Source of the DNA: a bacterium
GTDB lineage: Bacteria > Vulcanimicrobiota > Vulcanimicrobiia > Vulcanimicrobiales > Vulcanimicrobiaceae
DNA length: 32,026 nt
NCBI GenBank assembly: GCA_021807065.1
Contig: JAKAPO010000002.1
Location: 1 to 32,026 of the forward strand
Direction of reading: 5' to 3'
A program made the position numbers and the translations under genes. The notes beneath the pieces are model-generated. The model was given only the letters and a program-made list of their open reading frames with translations. It did not search any database and was not told where the DNA came from. Shown piece after piece: positions 5,872 to 31,281 of the stretch (position 1 is its first letter; the number at the start of each line of letters is the position of its first letter).

Positions 5872-5887
5872 GTTAGGCATGCCTCAT
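5872..5887. repeat. Palindromic site 1: GTTAGGCATGCCTCAT
   Basis: Member of a TTAGG-N4-CCTMA family, see also 6021, 6342 and 19600. Confidence 0.55.
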
Positions 5888-6020: not shown

Positions 6021-6036
6021 GTTAGGCGCACCTAAT
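6021..6036. repeat. Palindromic site 2: GTTAGGCGCACCTAAT
   Basis: TTAGG-N4-CCTAA. Confidence 0.6.
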
Positions 6037-6055
6037 AGCAGCGAATACCGAAAAT

Positions 6056-6099
6056 AGAACACCTGTTCGCTTGTATCAGTGGCGTCAGTGTGCGATACT
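6056..6099 (+). promoter_or_regulatory. Promoter with GAAC-N4-GTTC operator (LexA/Cheo-box-like)
   Basis: AGAACACCTGTTCG, -35 TTGTAT 6071-6076, 17-bp spacer, -10 GATACT 6094-6099; ATG at 6106. Confidence 0.65.
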
Positions 6100-6105
6100 A
6101 TGGAC

Positions 6106-6357
6106 ATGAGAACGAACCGTCAGCGGCACACCTGCGATCTCAGCGAAAGAGCCTTCGGCAGACGGCACCCGGGCTGCCCGCGGTGCGACGAACTTGTGGC
6201 GCTCGTGGGCGCCTACGAGGCCCAGACGGGCGACGATGCGATAGCCGCGAGCCTGGTCGCGGCCTCAGAATTGGCGGAGATCGATCGCCACCTGTTCGCC
6301 CGTAACACACAGTACCGGCTTGGCTCGATTCTTGGCCGAGTATTTAGGAGCGCCTAA
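6106..6357 (+). CDS. Small Cys-containing protein upstream of recombinase
   Basis: MRTNRQRHTCDLSERAFGRRHPGCPRCDELV...; promoter directly upstream; stop 3 bp before the recombinase start. Confidence 0.6.
   Translation: MRTNRQRHTCDLSERAFGRRHPGCPRCDELVALVGAYEAQTGDDAIAASLVAASELAEIDRHLFARNTQYRLGSILGRVFRSA
6342..6357. repeat. Palindromic site 3: ATTTAGGAGCGCCTAA, overlapping the stop codon of the small ORF
   Basis: TTAGG-N4-CCTAA, immediately 5' of the recombinase ATG at 6360. Confidence 0.6.
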
Positions 6358-6359
6358 TA

Positions 6360-7055
6360 ATGAGAGTAGCAGCGTATTACCGGGTGAGTACCCGCGCTCA
6401 GGGCGAGGACGACCGGCTCGGCCTGCCCGTGCAGGTCGCCGGCGTCGAAGCCTACTGCGCCAGGGAGGGCCACGAGATCGTCGCCACCTATACGGATGTC
6501 GGCTTCTCGGGCTCGACCATCGATCGCCCGCAGCTCGCCGCGCTGCTTGCCTCGCGCGACCCCAAAAATTCTCACGAGAATGGTTGTGTTTTGTTCGAGG
6601 CGGTCATCGTGCATAAATGGGATCGATTGGCGCGCGATACCATGCTCGACGGGTATCTGCGCTATCAACTGTCCCAACGTGGCTGCGCGGTTGTCTCAGC
6701 CAGCGAAACCAATGGCGTGGACCCCATCTCGACCATGACGCAGCAGATTCTCGCGGTTGTGGCCCAGTATGAGCGAACCCTGATAACACAGAGGCTACAG
6801 GCCGGCAGAAGGCTGAAGAAGGCTCGCGGGGGGTACGCCGGCGGGAAGCCGGCCCTGGGGCTGCGGCTCTCCGAAGGAGTGCTGGTGCCCTGCGAGGCTG
6901 AGATCGAGGCACTCCGCACCGTGCAAGACCTGCACGGAGCAGGGAAGTCTGTTCGGGCAATCACCCGCGCACTCAACGATTCGACCCTCCGCACCCGTGG
7001 GGGCAAACCCTGGGCGTCGAGTACGGTACACGCGATGCTTGGGCGGCGGCCGTGA
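6360..7055 (+). CDS. Short serine recombinase (resolvase/invertase-type catalytic domain plus short recombinase domain)
   Basis: 'VAAYYRVSTRAQGEDDRLGLPVQ', 'GFSGSTIDRPQL', 'VHKWDRLARD', 'GGKPALGLRLSEG', 'LNDSTLRTRGGKPWASSTVHAML'. Confidence 0.92.
   Translation: MRVAAYYRVSTRAQGEDDRLGLPVQVAGVEAYCAREGHEIVATYTDVGFSGSTIDRPQLAALLASRDPKNSHENGCVLFEAVIVHKWDRLARDTMLDGYLRYQLSQRGCAVVSASETNGVDPISTMTQQILAVVAQYERTLITQRLQAGRRLKKARGGYAGGKPALGLRLSEGVLVPCEAEIEALRTVQDLHGAGKSVRAITRALNDSTLRTRGGKPWASSTVHAMLGRRP
6563..6593. repeat. Copy 1 of a ~30-bp repeat, in frame inside the recombinase
   Basis: CAAAAATTCTCACGAGAATGGTTGTGTTTTG; the last 23 bp are identical to 7133-7155. Confidence 0.85.
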
Positions 7056-7125: not shown

Positions 7126-7156
7126 CAAAAACCTCACGAGAATGGTTGTGTTTTGC
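7126..7156. repeat. Copy 2 of the ~30-bp repeat, between convergent genes; possible hairpin/terminator
   Basis: GCAAAAACCTCACGAGAATGGTTGTGTTTTGC; ends pair GCAAAA/TTTTGC. Confidence 0.8.
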
Positions 7157-19369: not shown

Positions 19370-19825
19370 ATGACAACCGGATTGAATCGCCTGCGCGAAG
19401 CGTGGCCCGCGATCGTCGGCACCGACATCGCCGCCCACTCGAAACCGGTCCAGGTGTTGAACGGGGCCCTGCTCATCCTCACGGACTCCAGCGGATGGAG
19501 CCAGCAGGTCAGCCTGTTAACCGGCCACATCATCCCGGCCGTCAGCGAGATCGAGCCGACGATCGATCGTCTCCGGTTCCGCGTCGATGAGCAGGCGCTT
19601 TTAGGAGCGCCTAACAACGCCCTCACGTCGAAGACCCGGCGCGAAATCTTCGCCAGTTTCGAGGAGTACCTCCGCATCTTCGACCGGACTGCCCGGCTCT
19701 TTTTCACGCGCAACGTGGCCGGTATTCCGGTCAGTTCATTCACGGAATTGACCGAGGAGCAGGGGCAGAAGTTGCTCGAAGCCATTGAAATGGCCGGACC
19801 ACTTGAAAACCGCAGGCCGCGGTAG
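19370..19825 (+). CDS. DUF721/DciA-like replicative helicase loader
   Basis: 'AWPAIVGTDIAAHSKPVQVLNGALLILTDSSGWSQQVSLLTGHIIPAVSEIEPTIDRLRFRV'; encoded upstream of dnaB. Confidence 0.65.
   Translation: MTTGLNRLREAWPAIVGTDIAAHSKPVQVLNGALLILTDSSGWSQQVSLLTGHIIPAVSEIEPTIDRLRFRVDEQALLGAPNNALTSKTRREIFASFEEYLRIFDRTARLFFTRNVAGIPVSSFTELTEEQGQKLLEAIEMAGPLENRRPR
19600..19615. repeat. Palindromic site 4: TTTAGGAGCGCCTAAC within the DciA-like CDS
   Basis: Same TTAGGAGCGCCTAA core as site 3 (6342-6357). Confidence 0.6.
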
Positions 19826-20159: not shown

Positions 20160-20920
20160 ACCCAGCGGCTGTCGTCAAGGCCGCGATGTTCCTCTGCCGA
20201 GCCGCCGGCGAGCCGCCCTCAATTCGCAGGGTCGCCGCACTCATTAAGACGGCCACGGGAAAAGCCATCCGATGGGCCGACATTTCCGCAGCGATGGATG
20301 CGGTCTGCGCCGAGCCGGGCAACACTTTTACGAGGCGCGGGCAACAAAGACGCAAGGCGGCACCGAAGCCGGGCAACACTTTTACGAGGGCCGGGCAACA
20401 AAGTGCCGATTTGGGCAACACCCCGGCAACAAACGGGCAACAGTTGGGCAACAGCCGGGCAACACTTTTACGAGGGCCGGGCAACAAAGACGCTCCAAGC
20501 ACGGGCAACATCCCGGCAACACCAATCAGATATAGAGAGACTAAGAGAATAGGAGAGACTTCGTCTCTCCCTGTGCAGCCGAAAATGAGATTCGACTTTG
20601 ACGAAACGACGAGGGCCAGCGGGTATGTCGACGCGATCTTCCCGCTCTTCGAGGCCGCGCTCTGTTCTCGTGGGGAGAAGGTCCCGATCGGCAAAACGGA
20701 GTGGAAAAAGCGGAACATGCGATGCGCTCGGGACCTGGCGAAACAAGGCATCTCCGCCGAGCGCATCATCGCTGCGTGGAAATCGGCCTGCGATCGGCTC
20801 GGTGAGCCGCCCTTCACGATGAAAATGGTCCAGGATGAGCTGATTCGCGGAGCAGCCAAGCGAGCGCCGACAGGAACAGGCAATCTCCGCGTTTTCGATG
20901 GGACCGAGGTGCTTTTGTGA
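20156..20920 (+). CDS. Replication initiator, lambda O-like in organisation
   Basis: Located directly upstream of dnaB, contains an internal iteron array; 4-nt overlap with dnaB. Confidence 0.6.
   Translation: MNPAAVVKAAMFLCRAAGEPPSIRRVAALIKTATGKAIRWADISAAMDAVCAEPGNTFTRRGQQRRKAAPKPGNTFTRAGQQSADLGNTPATNGQQLGNSRATLLRGPGNKDAPSTGNIPATPIRYRETKRIGETSSLPVQPKMRFDFDETTRASGYVDAIFPLFEAALCSRGEKVPIGKTEWKKRNMRCARDLAKQGISAERIIAAWKSACDRLGEPPFTMKMVQDELIRGAAKRAPTGTGNLRVFDGTEVLL
20317..20521 (+). repeat. Iteron array: 12 copies of GGCAACA (10 as GGGCAACA)
   Basis: Starts of unit: 20317, 20339, 20371, 20393, 20413, 20424, 20435, 20446, 20457, 20479, 20503, 20514. Confidence 0.85.
20521..20570 (+). other. Candidate origin unwinding element plus hairpin
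   Basis: AT/purine-rich accaatcagatatagagagactaagagaataggag followed by GGAGAGAC-TTC-GTCTCTCC (20552-20570). Confidence 0.5.
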
Positions 20921-22278
20921 TACAGACCCGAGATCGAATACCGCCCCAAAGCCTCGAGGCCGAGGCCGCCCTGATAGGCGCCTGCATCCAGGACCCGGTT
21001 ATCCTCGATGCCGTCGCCACGCTCGTGAGGCCCGAGGACTTCTACGCCCTCATCCACGATCGTATCTTCGGGACCCTCGCCCGCATGGTCCGGGATGGTG
21101 CGGTCGTCGACGCGATAACGGTCGCGGAACGGCTACGGGCGGCGGGGCAGCTCGAGCAATGCGGCGGGTTCTCGTACCTCTCTAGCCTTGCGGCGACGAT
21201 TCAGACCGTCGATTCGGCGGTCTATTACGCGAAGATCGTGCGCGAGAAGGCTTCGCTTCGACGGCTCATTTCGGCCGGCCAGAAACTCCAGGAACTCGGC
21301 TTTGAGGGCGAGGACGATGTTTCAGCCACGCTCGGCGCCGCGAGCAGCCTGGTCGTGGAGGCGATCGATGCCGGCACCACGCGCCGGTTCACCTCGATGG
21401 CCGAGTCCCTCGCGGCTTACGAGGCGAAGTTGGGGCAGGAGGGCGGCATCGCCTATCGCACACCCTGGGAGAAGCTCGATGCGCTCACCAGCGGCTTCGT
21501 TCCGGGCGAACTCGTGGTCTGGGCCGGCGACGGTGGGATCGGCAAGTCTCAGGCGTTGACCATGCTCACCGCATACACCGCCGAGCGGTACGGGCGCGTG
21601 GCGCTCTTTGCCACAGAGATGGGCCGTGACCGCACCGTCGCCCGCTTCGTGGCGCTCTACTCGGGCGTGAGTGCTAGGCGGCAACGGAACGACCCGCAGG
21701 CGCCGCTCACGGTGCGCGAGCAGGGCCGCATCGCGGAGGCGCGCAGGCTGCTCGAGCTCGCGCCGATAGACCTATTCGATGCGGCCCCGGCCACGACGAC
21801 TGACGACGTGGTGGCCCAATGCCGCCAGATGCACCGGGAGCGTCCGCTCAAGCAGGTGACGATCGATACCTTCGGGATGCTCGCCGATCTTGAAGAGACC
21901 GGCCGGCGCACGTTGACCTCGGTGATCGAGGCGTCAGCCCGGAAACTCGTGCGGCTTTCGCAGGAGCTCGGCATCGTGATTCACCTGGTGCAGCATTTGA
22001 ACCGCGACGGCACCGAGCGCACGAAGAAGCCCTCGAAAAGAAACCTGCGGAACGGGGGCAACCTCGAAGGCCACGCCTCGACGGTCATCCTGCTCTGGCA
22101 GAGCGCCGAGGGCAAATACTACTTCATCGTGGACAAGGCGCGGGACGGGTGCGAGCGCGATGTCGAGATGGAGCGATTCGGGCACCGCTCGGTCTGGCTC
22201 GAAAAGGGCGGACGCGAGCAGGCGTGGTGCGAGCCGCTCGATGCGATGCAAGACGACTTTTTGGACGGGCTGGGATGA
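20917..22278 (+). CDS. dnaB: Replicative DNA helicase DnaB
   Basis: 'PPQSLEAEAALIGACIQDP', Walker A 'AGDGGIGKS', 'IHLVQHLNRDGTERTKKPSKRNLRNGGNLEGHASTVILLW'. Confidence 0.93.
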   Translation: MIQTRDRIPPQSLEAEAALIGACIQDPVILDAVATLVRPEDFYALIHDRIFGTLARMVRDGAVVDAITVAERLRAAGQLEQCGGFSYLSSLAATIQTVDSAVYYAKIVREKASLRRLISAGQKLQELGFEGEDDVSATLGAASSLVVEAIDAGTTRRFTSMAESLAAYEAKLGQEGGIAYRTPWEKLDALTSGFVPGELVVWAGDGGIGKSQALTMLTAYTAERYGRVALFATEMGRDRTVARFVALYSGVSARRQRNDPQAPLTVREQGRIAEARRLLELAPIDLFDAAPATTTDDVVAQCRQMHRERPLKQVTIDTFGMLADLEETGRRTLTSVIEASARKLVRLSQELGIVIHLVQHLNRDGTERTKKPSKRNLRNGGNLEGHASTVILLWQSAEGKYYFIVDKARDGCERDVEMERFGHRSVWLEKGGREQAWCEPLDAMQDDFLDGLG

Positions 22279-26649: not shown

Positions 26650-26912
26650 CCGAGCGGACACCGGCTGAGATTGCCTCGCCCGGATACGCCTGCACGATCG
26701 CCTACGTCGGGGCAGAGATTGCCGCTGGGCGGCTGCGAATCGCCCGGATAGGGGTGCGCTCGGGGATCGTGTTCGAGGCCGTGCTCACGCCCAAGGAACG
26801 CTGCGCTGAGGTGGGGAGCGCGGTCGCGGCCGTCGTCCTCATGGTGACGATCTTCGTCCTGCCGTTCGCGGTCCTCGGGGTGCTGATCGCGCTTGGTCGG
26901 GGGCTCCTGTGA
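26646..26912 (+). CDS. Small membrane protein
   Basis: C-terminal hydrophobic 'VAAVVLMVTIFVLPFAVLGVLIALG'. Confidence 0.55.
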   Translation: MTERTPAEIASPGYACTIAYVGAEIAAGRLRIARIGVRSGIVFEAVLTPKERCAEVGSAVAAVVLMVTIFVLPFAVLGVLIALGRGLL

Positions 26913-28184
26913 CGCTGCGGGTCGTAAGCCTCTTTTGCGGACTCGGAGGATTCGACCTCGGCCTGTACGCCGCCGCCGACGCGCTGGGCATCGAGGTCGA
27001 GGTCGTGGACGCGATAGACTCGTGGCCCGTCGCCGTCGAGGTCTATAACCGAAACCAGCGCCACGCCGTCGCCCGCGTTGCCGACGTGAAGAAGATGACG
27101 CGCGCCGATCTCGCGCCGCACGACCTCATCATCGGTGGCCCTCCGTGCGTGGGGGCATAGCATGGCCGGGAAGAGGCTCGGGCGCGACGACCCGCGCGAC
27201 TGTTTGGAGGATTTCGAGCGCCTCGTTGGTATCGGCACCGGCGACGAATCGCCATACATCATGGAGAACGTCGCCTCGCGCCTGATTAACGCGCCGTGGT
27301 CCGAACGATTCTGCGCGGCCGATTTCGGGGACGTGACGAGCCGTCGGCGGTGGTTCTACTCGCAGTACCTCTTGCACGTCGTTCCGACACCGGGGCCGAG
27401 GCGCATCCGCGACATTCGGGACCACGACGAAGACGAGCGCGTTCTGCGGAAACGCGGCTTCTGGACGGGCGACGAGATGCAAGCCGTTGCAGAGGACGAC
27501 GCCGTCCTTCCGTCGCTTTGCTCTGGCGACTTTCACGGGACGAAGAACAACGGCAGTGGCAACCCCACGAAAGGTTCGAAGATTCGCTGCAAAGCGGGCC
27601 AGCACCGGCACTACGACGATACGCTCGATACGCTCCAGGCCCATTCATGGCATGGGCACGATATTCGGGGAAGCGGGAAACTCATCGGGATAGCGGACGA
27701 CGGCGTATTTGGCTCGCTGACGGCAGACGCACCGCGAGCGTTTAGCGGGGAACGCGTTGCGATTGTCGTCCGAAATGGCGATCGCGCTCCGAACGATTCT
27801 CGGGTATTGAGCGAGGATGACTTCATGCCGACCACGACGGCCAAGCCGGGAAACTGCAACCTTAATGCCGCTGCGCTCAAGCTCGGGCTACGCGGCAACT
27901 CGGCCTCGGCCTCGGCCTCGGCCTTCGATGATGATGAAGTCCTCGGCTCCATCCTGTCAAACTCTTTTCACGGCAACGAGGCGTCGAAACTCGTCGGGTG
28001 CCGGAACCCTTCGATCTTGGAAATGGCGCGATCCCATAGCATCCCGGACTCGTTCGACTGGGCCGGCGCGACCAAGACCGACCGTGGCAAACTCATCGCG
28101 AACAGCGTCCCCGCAGGTATGGCGCAGGCCGTGTGCCTCTCCATGCTGCGGATGCTCAGAAACGCGAAAAGCCCCCGGCCGTGA
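26909..28184 (+). pseudogene. C5-cytosine DNA methyltransferase with apparent +1 frameshift at ~27150
   Basis: Frame A 'VVSLFCGLGGFDLGL...LIIGGPPCVG'; frame B 'HSMAGKRLGRDDPRDCL...YIMENV...DVTSRRRWFYSQ...IANSVPAGMAQAV'. Confidence 0.85.
27900..27923 (+). repeat. (CTCGGC)x4 hexanucleotide repeat in the methyltransferase variable region
   Basis: Encodes SASASAS. Confidence 0.75.
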
Positions 28185-28200
28185 AGCCAGGGGCCAAAAT

Positions 28201-28244
28201 CGAACGCCTGTTCGCTTTACAAGGGTAGCGTAGTATGCTACACT
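28201..28244 (+). promoter_or_regulatory. Promoter with GAAC-N4-GTTC operator (LexA/Cheo-box-like)
   Basis: CGAACGCCTGTTCG, -35 TTTACA 28216-28221, 17-bp spacer, -10 TACACT 28239-28244. Confidence 0.65.
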
Positions 28245-28280
28245 TAGGGCATGAGGCCGGACCTTAGAAAGAAGAAGGAA

Positions 28281-29039
28281 ATGACACAGAAAAGAAGGCC
28301 CCGCATGACCCGCGCGGAAATCGCTGCCGTCCTTGCCGATCACGCGCTTTGGGTCGGGGATCAGGCCACAGGCGCGCGCGCCAACCTCTCGTGCGCCACC
28401 CTCTCGTGCGCCACCCTCTCGGACGCCGACCTCTCGCGCGCCGACCTTTCGGACGCCACCCTCTCGGGCGCCGACCTCTCGCGCGCCGACCTTTCGGGCG
28501 CCGACCTTTCGGACGCCACCCTCTCGCGCGCCGACCTCTCGCGCGCCAAACTCTCGGACGCCAACCTCTCGGACGCCAACCTCTCGGGCGCCGACCTTTC
28601 GGGCGCCGACCTTTCGGGCGCCGACCTTTCGGACGCCACCCTCTCGGGCGCCAACCTCTCGCGCGCCACCCTCTCGGGCGCCAACCTCTCGCGCGCCATC
28701 CTTCCCCCTTTCCAGATCGTCCCCGAAACCGGAGCGTTCCGAGCGTGGAAAAAACTCACCGACGGCATCGTAGCCGAGATCGAGATACCTGCCGACGCCT
28801 CGCGCGTATCGTCTACCGGGCGCAAATGTAGAGCCGAGCGCGCGCTCGTGCTCGGACTCTATCGCGACGGTGCGCCGGCCAACACGGACCGCGCACGCGG
28901 CATCCACGATCGTACCGTCGAGTATGTCGTCGGCAGCAGCGTGATTGCCAACGCATGGGACCCTGATATTCGGGAGGAGTGTACAGGCGGTATCCACTTT
29001 TTCCTTCGGCGCGCTGAAGCGGAGGCGTACTCATGCTAA
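28281..29039 (+). CDS. Pentapeptide-repeat protein with DUF5758-like C-terminus
   Basis: ~20 A(D/N/T)LSx repeats; C-terminal '...[39 protein letters not shown]...[14 protein letters not shown]'; SD AGAAGGA; alternative ATG at 28251. Confidence 0.85.
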
Positions 29040-29088: not shown

Positions 29089-29244
29089 ATGACCTGCACC
29101 GTCTGCGCCGCCCCGCTCAGCGAGAGGCAGGTGGTGATCGCTGAGTCCCGCGGCATGAAGGCGCTCTACTGCTCGACGCGGTGCCGCAAGAGGGCCGCAA
29201 ACCTCCGCGCCGTCGCGCGCAACCGCGCGACGGCGCAGCCATGA
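29089..29244 (+). CDS. 51-aa Cys mini-protein
   Basis: Not in ORF track; MTCTVCAAPLSERQVVIAESRGMKALYCSTRCRKRAANLRAVARNRATAQP; ATGA overlap with the next ORF. Confidence 0.6.
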   Translation: MTCTVCAAPLSERQVVIAESRGMKALYCSTRCRKRAANLRAVARNRATAQP

Positions 29245-29630
29245 AGGCGCTGAGCATCCGCCCGGCCTGGGCGCACGCAATCGCGCACCTCGGGAAGCGC
29301 ATCGAAAATCGCACCTGGTCAACGCGCTATCGCGGCCCGATTCTCATCCACGCCTCGTCCTCGGTGGACGCCGGCGATCATCGGCTCCTCGAGGCGATCA
29401 TCGGCCGTTCCGTCGACCGGGAGAGTTTCGAGCGCGGCGCGATCGTCGCCGTTGCCGAGATCGCGGACTGCGTTGACGCCGCCGAGGCTCCAAGCCGCTG
29501 GACGTGCGGGCCTATCGCTTGGAGGCTGCGCAACGTGCGCGCTCTGCGCCGGCCCGTCGCGGCGAGCGGCCGGCTCGGACTCTGGACGCCGGATGCTTCG
29601 CTTCTGCGCCGCGTGAAGGCCGCGCTCTAG
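29241..29630 (+). CDS. ASCH/PUA-like domain protein
   Basis: 'MKALSIRPAWAHAIAHLGKRIENRTWSTRYRGPILIHAS'. Confidence 0.8.
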   Translation: MKALSIRPAWAHAIAHLGKRIENRTWSTRYRGPILIHASSSVDAGDHRLLEAIIGRSVDRESFERGAIVAVAEIADCVDAAEAPSRWTCGPIAWRLRNVRALRRPVAASGRLGLWTPDASLLRRVKAAL

Positions 29631-30688
29631 CGGACCCACTCCCAGGAGGTCGTGAGGCGCTGGCTCGCGCGTTTCGCGACCTTATCAGGTGACGTGCGGC
29701 TCGCCCTGCGCACCAATCTCCAGCGAGAGGACTTCTGGCGCGCGAGATTGAGCGGCAGCGATGCCGAAACCGAACTCAGTTTTCGTTGCGGGTCCTCTTC
29801 GGCCATGAGCGCGAAGCAGGCATCAACGAACTTCGAGCCAATCCCCGCGCCTTGGTATTCCGGCAAAATCACGGCGCGATGATCGCGCCAGCGCGCCGCG
29901 TAGCCCATGACGGGGAGGAACGATGCCCACCCGCACAAGGCCGAGTAGTCGCCGATGTGAATGGCGCCGACGAAGCAGCGGGCGCTAGATGAGAGATCGC
30001 CGCTCAAATAGTGATGCGCTGCAAACAAGGGCCAGAGACTACGCGCTGCAGGATGGATGCTGACGCTGAACGCTGGTCGCCGAAGACGCCCCCTTGCCAG
30101 CGTGGCAGTTGCCGTGTCAAACACCCAATCGGCTTCGAGCCATTCCGCCACGTCGTAATGACAGGTCGCGACGACGAGGCGTTTCTTCATTCGGCGAACC
30201 GCCTTTGCTGTCGCCATTGCGGTTGTTCGCGCAACAACGCGGTCAAGCAACGACGTAAACTCATCGAAGACGATGCGATCGGTTTCGAGAATCGCCCGCG
30301 TCATCGCCGCGCGCTGCTGCTGCCCATTTGATAGCCGAAAGTATGGCAGCATCCAGGCCGGCACGGACGACAGACCAGTCCCAGCGAGCGCCCGAGAGAC
30401 TTCTTCGACGGAGGCAGATCCCGCCAAATCATCGAGAAACGATGTCCCTCCCCATTCATATTTTGAGGCATCCGTCCATCCCCCGAACGCCGCGCGCAAA
30501 AGCTGCGATTTTCCAGAGCCAGACGGTCCAACGATGAGGCCCACCGACCATTCTTCTGCCTCATCGGGAAGTTCTGCGTGCAGTTGGAAACGTGTGCGTC
30601 CACCTGGGTCATAATCCATTCGTGATGCAAGCGATTGCACACGGAACGTGTCGGAGATCGGGCTCTGGAGATCGAGATCGATTTTCAT
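29627..30688 (-). CDS. ABC-type ATPase fused to GNAT acetyltransferase
   Basis: Walker A 'GPSGSGKSQLL', signature 'LSNGQQQRAAMTRAI', Walker B 'DRIVFDEFTSLLD'; GNAT-like 'HRAVILPEYQGAGIGSKFVDACF'. Confidence 0.82.
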   Translation of the reverse strand: MKIDLDLQSPISDTFRVQSLASRMDYDPGGRTRFQLHAELPDEAEEWSVGLIVGPSGSGKSQLLRAAFGGWTDASKYEWGGTSFLDDLAGSASVEEVSRALAGTGLSSVPAWMLPYFRLSNGQQQRAAMTRAILETDRIVFDEFTSLLDRVVARTTAMATAKAVRRMKKRLVVATCHYDVAEWLEADWVFDTATATLARGRLRRPAFSVSIHPAARSLWPLFAAHHYLSGDLSSSARCFVGAIHIGDYSALCGWASFLPVMGYAARWRDHRAVILPEYQGAGIGSKFVDACFALMAEEDPQRKLSSVSASLPLNLARQKSSRWRLVRRASRTSPDKVAKRASQRLTTSWEWVR

Positions 30689-31281
30689 AGCTGCAATACT
30701 CGGACTTGTCGTCCTTCGGCTTTGAGCCGCTCGTAGAGTTCGCGCTGCTGATTCTCGTCGGCGACCGTCACCACGAGTTCAAAGCGCGTAGCATACGCGA
30801 GAGCGGCACTCTCATCGTCGACTGGCGGCAGCAGGGCATCGAGGCGGAGCTCGTGCATCATCTGCGAGTCTTGCTCCTGCAGTTCGAGGAGCATCGCATC
30901 GAGATCGTCCGTGAAGTCGCCGGCGATCTTCGGGTTATTCAGCGTCACGTTCAGCGCCCGCTCGTCCTTCTCGGCGAGATCTACCACAAGCACGTCGGCT
31001 TGCGTCTCGCCCGATTCCCGCAGCGCCAGCACCCGCTGATGGCCGCCGACGACGTGCCCGGTCCGGCTATTGTAGACGATCGGCTGCACGAGCCCGAATC
31101 GCTTGAGCGATGCCTTGAGGCCCTTGAGCGCCGCTGCCGAGATCTTCCGGGGATTGTAGGGCGCCGACTTGAGGTCCTCGATCGCCATGCGCACGAGCGG
31201 CTGCAGCGCGCCCTTCTGCGCCGATGCCGTAGCCGGTCGTTTCGCTTTTGGCGCCGGCGGGTTGGCTTTGCCCATCGCCAT
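30685..31281 (-). CDS. ParB-like nuclease-domain protein
   Basis: 'MAIEDLKSAPYNPRKISAAALKGLKASLKRFGLVQPIVYNSRTGHVVGGHQRVLALRESG'; ATGA overlap with ABC-GNAT. Confidence 0.88.
   Translation of the reverse strand: MAMGKANPPAPKAKRPATASAQKGALQPLVRMAIEDLKSAPYNPRKISAAALKGLKASLKRFGLVQPIVYNSRTGHVVGGHQRVLALRESGETQADVLVVDLAEKDERALNVTLNNPKIAGDFTDDLDAMLLELQEQDSQMMHELRLDALLPPVDDESAALAYATRFELVVTVADENQQRELYERLKAEGRQVRVLQL

Follow-up and report, generated by a model that had tools for sequence, protein, structure and literature searches.

Two promoters of a phage contig carry near-identical palindromes of the form GAAC-N4-GTTC, and both palindromes are likely to be operators through which the host's LexA protein would keep the promoters repressed until DNA damage. 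They lie about 22 kb apart in a window (the whole stretch of DNA analysed here) of 32,026 bases, which makes up all of contig C46 in a metagenome-assembled genome (MAG) of the phylum Eremiobacterota (2.35 Mb, 84% complete). Because both promoters carry a site of the host LexA type, damage to the host's DNA probably turns on the expression of a phage recombinase and of another gene. The principle is already known: SOS control of phages and of mobile-element recombinases is a familiar phage strategy. The unusual part is the geometry common to the two sites, and the number of sites is unremarkable.

Two sites with a common promoter geometry

An exact scan of the window finds exactly two GAAC-N4-GTTC cores, at 6057-6068 (GAACACCTGTTC) and 28202-28213 (GAACGCCTGTTC), in agreement with the count made by eye in an earlier note on this DNA. 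Shuffled windows contain a mean of 0.71 cores, and because two or more cores were reached by 16 of 100 shuffles, the bare count was rejected as evidence. The layout around the cores is identical to the base at both loci: a 16-bp box, an adjoining -35 element, 17 nt, a -10 element, 6 nt, and ATGAG (Table 1). The boxes themselves are identical in 15 of their 16 letters. A random core would fall at the same offset from a gene start with a probability of roughly 0.001 (a rough estimate, assuming about 0.6-0.7 cores per 32 kb and about 45 genes). The earlier note had described this arrangement, and a recount bears it out: each box abuts its -35, the two loci align without a gap, the TTGTAT-N17-GATACT promoter of the first locus falls where it had been placed, the distance from GAAC to ATG (at 6106 and 28251) is 49 nt in each case, and ATGAG begins at the seventh base after the -10 at both loci.

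The start of the first open reading frame is ambiguous because a second in-frame ATG lies at 6100. The suggestion that the transcripts could be leaderless fared less evenly. The spacing would fit leaderless transcription, and the arrangement resembles that of lexA and imuA in the genus. In a crude test, TANNNT was not in excess at the corresponding distance in same-genus host DNA, and in a related phage contig (L307, described below) the -10 is not closely followed by the start of the first ORF.

Table 1. Boxes, promoters, genes and shared block, in window coordinates
Feature	Position	Strand	Remarks
Box 1, TAGAACACCTGTTCGC	6055-6070	+	Weaker candidate LexA operator, with A in place of an outer C; core exact; 11.9-12.0 bits with host lexA matrix
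Promoter 1	6071-6099	+	-35 TTGTAT 6071-6076, 17 nt, -10 GATACT 6094-6099; consensus match only
Small Cys/His protein (HTC...ERAFGRR...CPRC)	6106-6357	+	Second in-frame ATG at 6100 as alternative start
Small serine recombinase, 231 aa	6360-7055	+	Resolvase PF00239 2e-28; PHROG integrase 2e-49
Box 2, TCGAACGCCTGTTCGC	28200-28215	+	Candidate LexA operator, strong; 18.1-18.2 bits with host lexA matrix; kept in L307
Promoter 2	28216-28244	+	-35 TTTACA 28216-28221, 17 nt, -10 TACACT 28239-28244; read from sequence; -10 offset same in L307
Pentapeptide-repeat protein, C-terminal DUF5758 domain	28251-29039	+	PF00805 2.8e-33; PF19062 4e-23
Block with ASCH-like, ABC/GNAT-like and ParB-like genes	29241-31204		Common to L307, 73.7% nucleotide identity; places box 2 as orthologous

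The genes behind the promoters

The Cys/His protein and the recombinase probably form one transcription unit, since the ATG of the latter stands 2 nt past the stop codon of the former (6355-6357). No family was found for the Cys/His protein in Pfam, PHROGs or NCBIfam, and it has a weak relative in one other genome (G044). Both RVST and DRLAR are retained as motifs in the recombinase, which has its match in an integrase family of phages.

Two further repeated sequences lie in this region. An exact 23-bp direct repeat (CTCACGAGAATGGTTGTGTTTTG) is present inside the recombinase ORF (6571-6593) and just past its stop (7133-7155), and nowhere else in the MAG. The palindrome TTAGG-N4-CCTAA is found at 5873-5886, 6022-6035, 6344-6357 and 19601-19614 (three exact copies and one near-exact, against 0.22 expected). 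The MAG has five exact copies, of which three sit on this contig. One copy ends 2 nt before the recombinase ATG, and the palindrome is a possible second operator of the recombinase cassette. A host copy lies upstream of an Nramp gene; a general role as an Nramp operator was rejected, as 30 other Nramp loci are without it.

The host LexA and its motif

The motif of the host LexA was derived without the window. Of the lexA loci read, 31 in total, 30 came from a search for the LexA domain PF01726 in 61 genomes of the order, and one is the MAG's own. In all 31, the upstream region contains at least two palindromes of the form C-R-AAC-N4-GTT-Y-G, whose central four bases vary; those upstream of lexA in the window's own MAG are CAAACCTGCGTTCG, CAAACGCCTGTTCG and CGAACGTACGTTTG. 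The motif also precedes other genes: GAAC-N4-GTTC stands upstream of recA in eight of 25 cases, among them the three from the same genus, and same-genus recA has the box GCGAACAGGAGTTCGA. The box CGAACATATGTTCG, identical to the LexA consensus that PMC8270828 gives for B. subtilis, lies upstream of imuA in the MAG and of an ImuA-like gene in G028. (The MAG imuA matches the NCBIfam ImuA model at 1.6e-16, yet falls under the curated cut-off.) Across the MAG, the pattern CRAACNNNNGTTYG has 21 sites versus 2 for a reversed control. The LexA protein of the MAG is complete (PF01726 2.7e-25, with a full-length match to a solved LexA), and the Ala-Gly cleavage site and the catalytic Ser and Lys are present by inspection. 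Compared with lexA from named MAGs of Candidatus Eremiobacterota, its gene shows 86-89% identity. The earlier note had allowed that the host LexA might recognise a different motif; the lexA boxes of the order have the same one. Its reading of both sites as LexA (Cheo) boxes is likewise supported, with the 28200 site matching the host motif in full and the 6055 site matching in the core, one outer base being off.

Scanned with a matrix built from the host lexA boxes, as had been proposed, the window has its best site at 28200, and the score falls inside the range of true host lexA boxes (16.4-22.1 bits). The site at 6055 comes second and, by score alone, is at chance level; it is lower because an A replaces one of the outer Cs. 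About 7% of shuffled windows contain a site that equals box 2 in strength, whereas about one site of box-1 strength is expected in every shuffled window. Box 1 is the less certain of the two candidates, and the case for it is made by the geometry and by its likeness to the 28200 site.

In host DNA, 398 kb from the same genus contain 10 sites above 15 bits, eight of which are in lexA promoters, while the other two lie upstream of an ImuA-like gene and of another ORF. A single strong box (>15 bits) was found in 346 kb of terminase-related prophage regions of the order, so LexA boxes are not general in these prophages. The possibility that boxes track the recombinase family was also rejected: ten relatives of the recombinase have no box above 12.2 bits near the gene. 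Both findings speak against the LexA reading of the window sites.

Conservation in a related phage

The sequence GAACRCCTGTTCGCTT was searched in 103 genomes and gave five matches, two of them in this window. Another is carried by L307 (G075:C211), a phage contig of 8.9 kb that comes from a different genus and also holds the block of genes downstream of box 2. The sole box above 10 bits in L307 (TCGAACACCTGTTCGC, 18.3 bits) lies about 955 bp upstream of the shared ASCH-like gene, and the corresponding distance in the window is about 1040 bp. The genes between box and block differ (the pentapeptide-repeat gene in the window, small ORFs in L307), and within this interval the two phages match most clearly over 22 bp that differ at a single base (AAAATCGAACRCCTGTTCGCTT). 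The -10 of L307 (TATGCT) stands at the same offset as in the window. Taken together, this conservation is the best single argument for selection on box 2. Box 1, box 2 and the L307 box have in common AAAAT, the core, the centre and CGCTT; no orthologue of box 1 was found.

Two other matches deserve mention. Both are exact 16-mers. The one in G094 falls within a long ORF and probably arose by chance, and the one in G044:C163 (L302/L309) is near an AbiEi-like gene; the symmetric sequence GCGAACGCCTGTTCGC (19.1 bits) is found there about 110 bp upstream of an AbiEi-like gene.

The phage contig and its host

The contig encodes a major head protein, portal, scaffold, TerL, RecE-like and RecT-like proteins and DnaB. 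It is probably partial, since no tail or lysis gene was recognised on it and its ends do not overlap. Relatives of TerL (up to 61% identity) occur in other genomes of the same order, so a host within Eremiobacterota fits; no terminase relatives were found among contigs of named genomes. That the phage resides in this very host we infer from binning and from the relatives in the same order. Two observations on its gene content can be added. Genes for a DciA-like helicase loader and a DnaB-like helicase are phage-borne (19370-19825 and 20917-22278), and a C5-cytosine methylase (26909-28184) seems to be split over overlapping frames (26909-27160 and 27135-28184), perhaps by a frameshift.

Proposed mechanism and alternatives

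In an undamaged cell, a LexA dimer bound to the GAAC-N4-GTTC palindrome would exclude RNA polymerase from each promoter. Damage to the DNA would activate RecA, LexA would then cleave itself, and both promoters would open. Promoter 1 would drive the joint expression of the small Cys protein and the serine recombinase, probably serving excision or integration; damage-induced excision would be the natural reading for such a recombinase. Promoter 2 would drive the pentapeptide-repeat/DUF5758 protein. The binding of LexA, the induction by damage and the roles of the gene products are all predictions made from sequence. A more far-reaching version, in which lysogeny in this phage group is maintained mainly by host LexA as repressor (the GIL01 pattern, but in a phage with a recombinase of its own), a phage partner reads the extra conserved bases AAAATNGAACRCCTGTTCGCTT, and damage directly frees the integrase-like recombinase, appears fairly unlikely.

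A repressor encoded by the phage could instead bind both sites, with an operator that resembles that of LexA through shared ancestry or mimicry. The phage boxes are indeed more alike than LexA requires: AAAATNGAACRCCTGTTCGCTT is common to both window sites and the related phage, unlike the host boxes with their varying centres, and the gene for such a repressor could lie outside a contig that is probably partial. Set against this, a Pfam scan of the window's proteins recognised no LexA-like, S24 or Cro/CI-type protein, and the core and outer bases of the sites agree with a host LexA motif that was derived independently, which together make a phage repressor improbable. Coincidence is a still weaker contender. 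GAAC-N4-GTTC is short, some shuffled windows contain two or more cores, a site of box-1 strength is expected about once per window, and even a site of box-2 strength turns up in a few of them; box 1 in particular might be coincidental. Chance would nevertheless have to place both sites at the same base relative to promoter and ATG, make them nearly identical, match both to the host motif, and conserve box 2 across phages of two genera, and it is very unlikely to have done so. For box 1 alone, chance is more likely than for both sites, though still rather unlikely.

The repeated sequence might also be a recombination or recombinase-binding site and not a transcriptional operator, as one copy is directly upstream of the recombinase cassette and similar palindromes stand upstream of IS607-type transposase genes in the MAG. 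This seems the least probable of the readings, and it can be given hardly any weight: neither the second window copy nor its counterpart in L307 adjoins a recombinase gene, the same motif is found upstream of lexA, recA and imuA, and both copies abut a promoter. The IS607-type genes (L193, G000:C195; L197, G000:C283) have their LexA-like boxes (CAAACATACGTTCG and CAAACGTGCGTTTG) 16 bp before the start, and these could reflect either SOS control of the transposon or sites for the transposase. Control by host LexA is the reading preferred for the two phage sites.

Known systems and significance

Several known systems resemble the arrangement proposed here. The Bacillus phage SPbeta has several LexA boxes of the CGAAC-N4-GTTCG type upstream of its own genes, some with the same off-consensus outer A as box 1, and for some of the boxes the binding of LexA was measured (PMC8270828). 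The yorB box of SPbeta (aGAACActTGTTCc), which has the outer A, is bound by LexA with a Kd of 12 nM (PMC8270828). SPbeta differs in being another phage of another phylum, in having no box reported before its integrase, and in the constitutive expression of sprA (PMC8270828); the SPbeta prophage is not silenced by LexA (PMC8270828). In GIL01, host LexA acts on phage promoters, as proposed here, and lysogeny is tied to the SOS response, but GIL01 is a linear plasmid-like phage with gp7 as a partner of LexA (PMC4551915).

Recombinases of mobile elements provide a second set of comparisons. A LexA box lies in the promoter of ccr, the serine recombinase that excises the mobile element SCCmec, according to the account of Liu et al. 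2017 given in PMC9728531. The best NCBIfam match of the window recombinase is the N-terminal part of the CcrB model, but by the curated cut-off it is not a Ccr protein: it scores 76 bits against a cut-off of 900, Ccr proteins have about 550 aa versus 231, and the element there is a cassette and here a phage. The integron integrase gene intI is a further case in which a LexA box controls a site-specific recombinase of a mobile system, although that enzyme is a tyrosine recombinase and the LexA motif is a different one, from Proteobacteria (PMC3108266). For the second promoter there is a parallel in qnrB, where a LexA box is found upstream of a pentapeptide-repeat gene (PMC10886550). The window protein is not a Qnr by the curated cut-off (40 bits against 240); unlike Qnr, it has a DUF5758 domain, and gyrase protection is not implied.

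In the open-access literature searched, no paper was found that names both LexA or SOS and Eremiobacterota. For Eremiobacterota, the analysis supplies a LexA motif derived from sequence and an initial, small SOS regulon. It would also link DNA damage in the host to a phage from this phylum, most of which is uncultured, by way of promoters that lend themselves to tests in a laboratory host.
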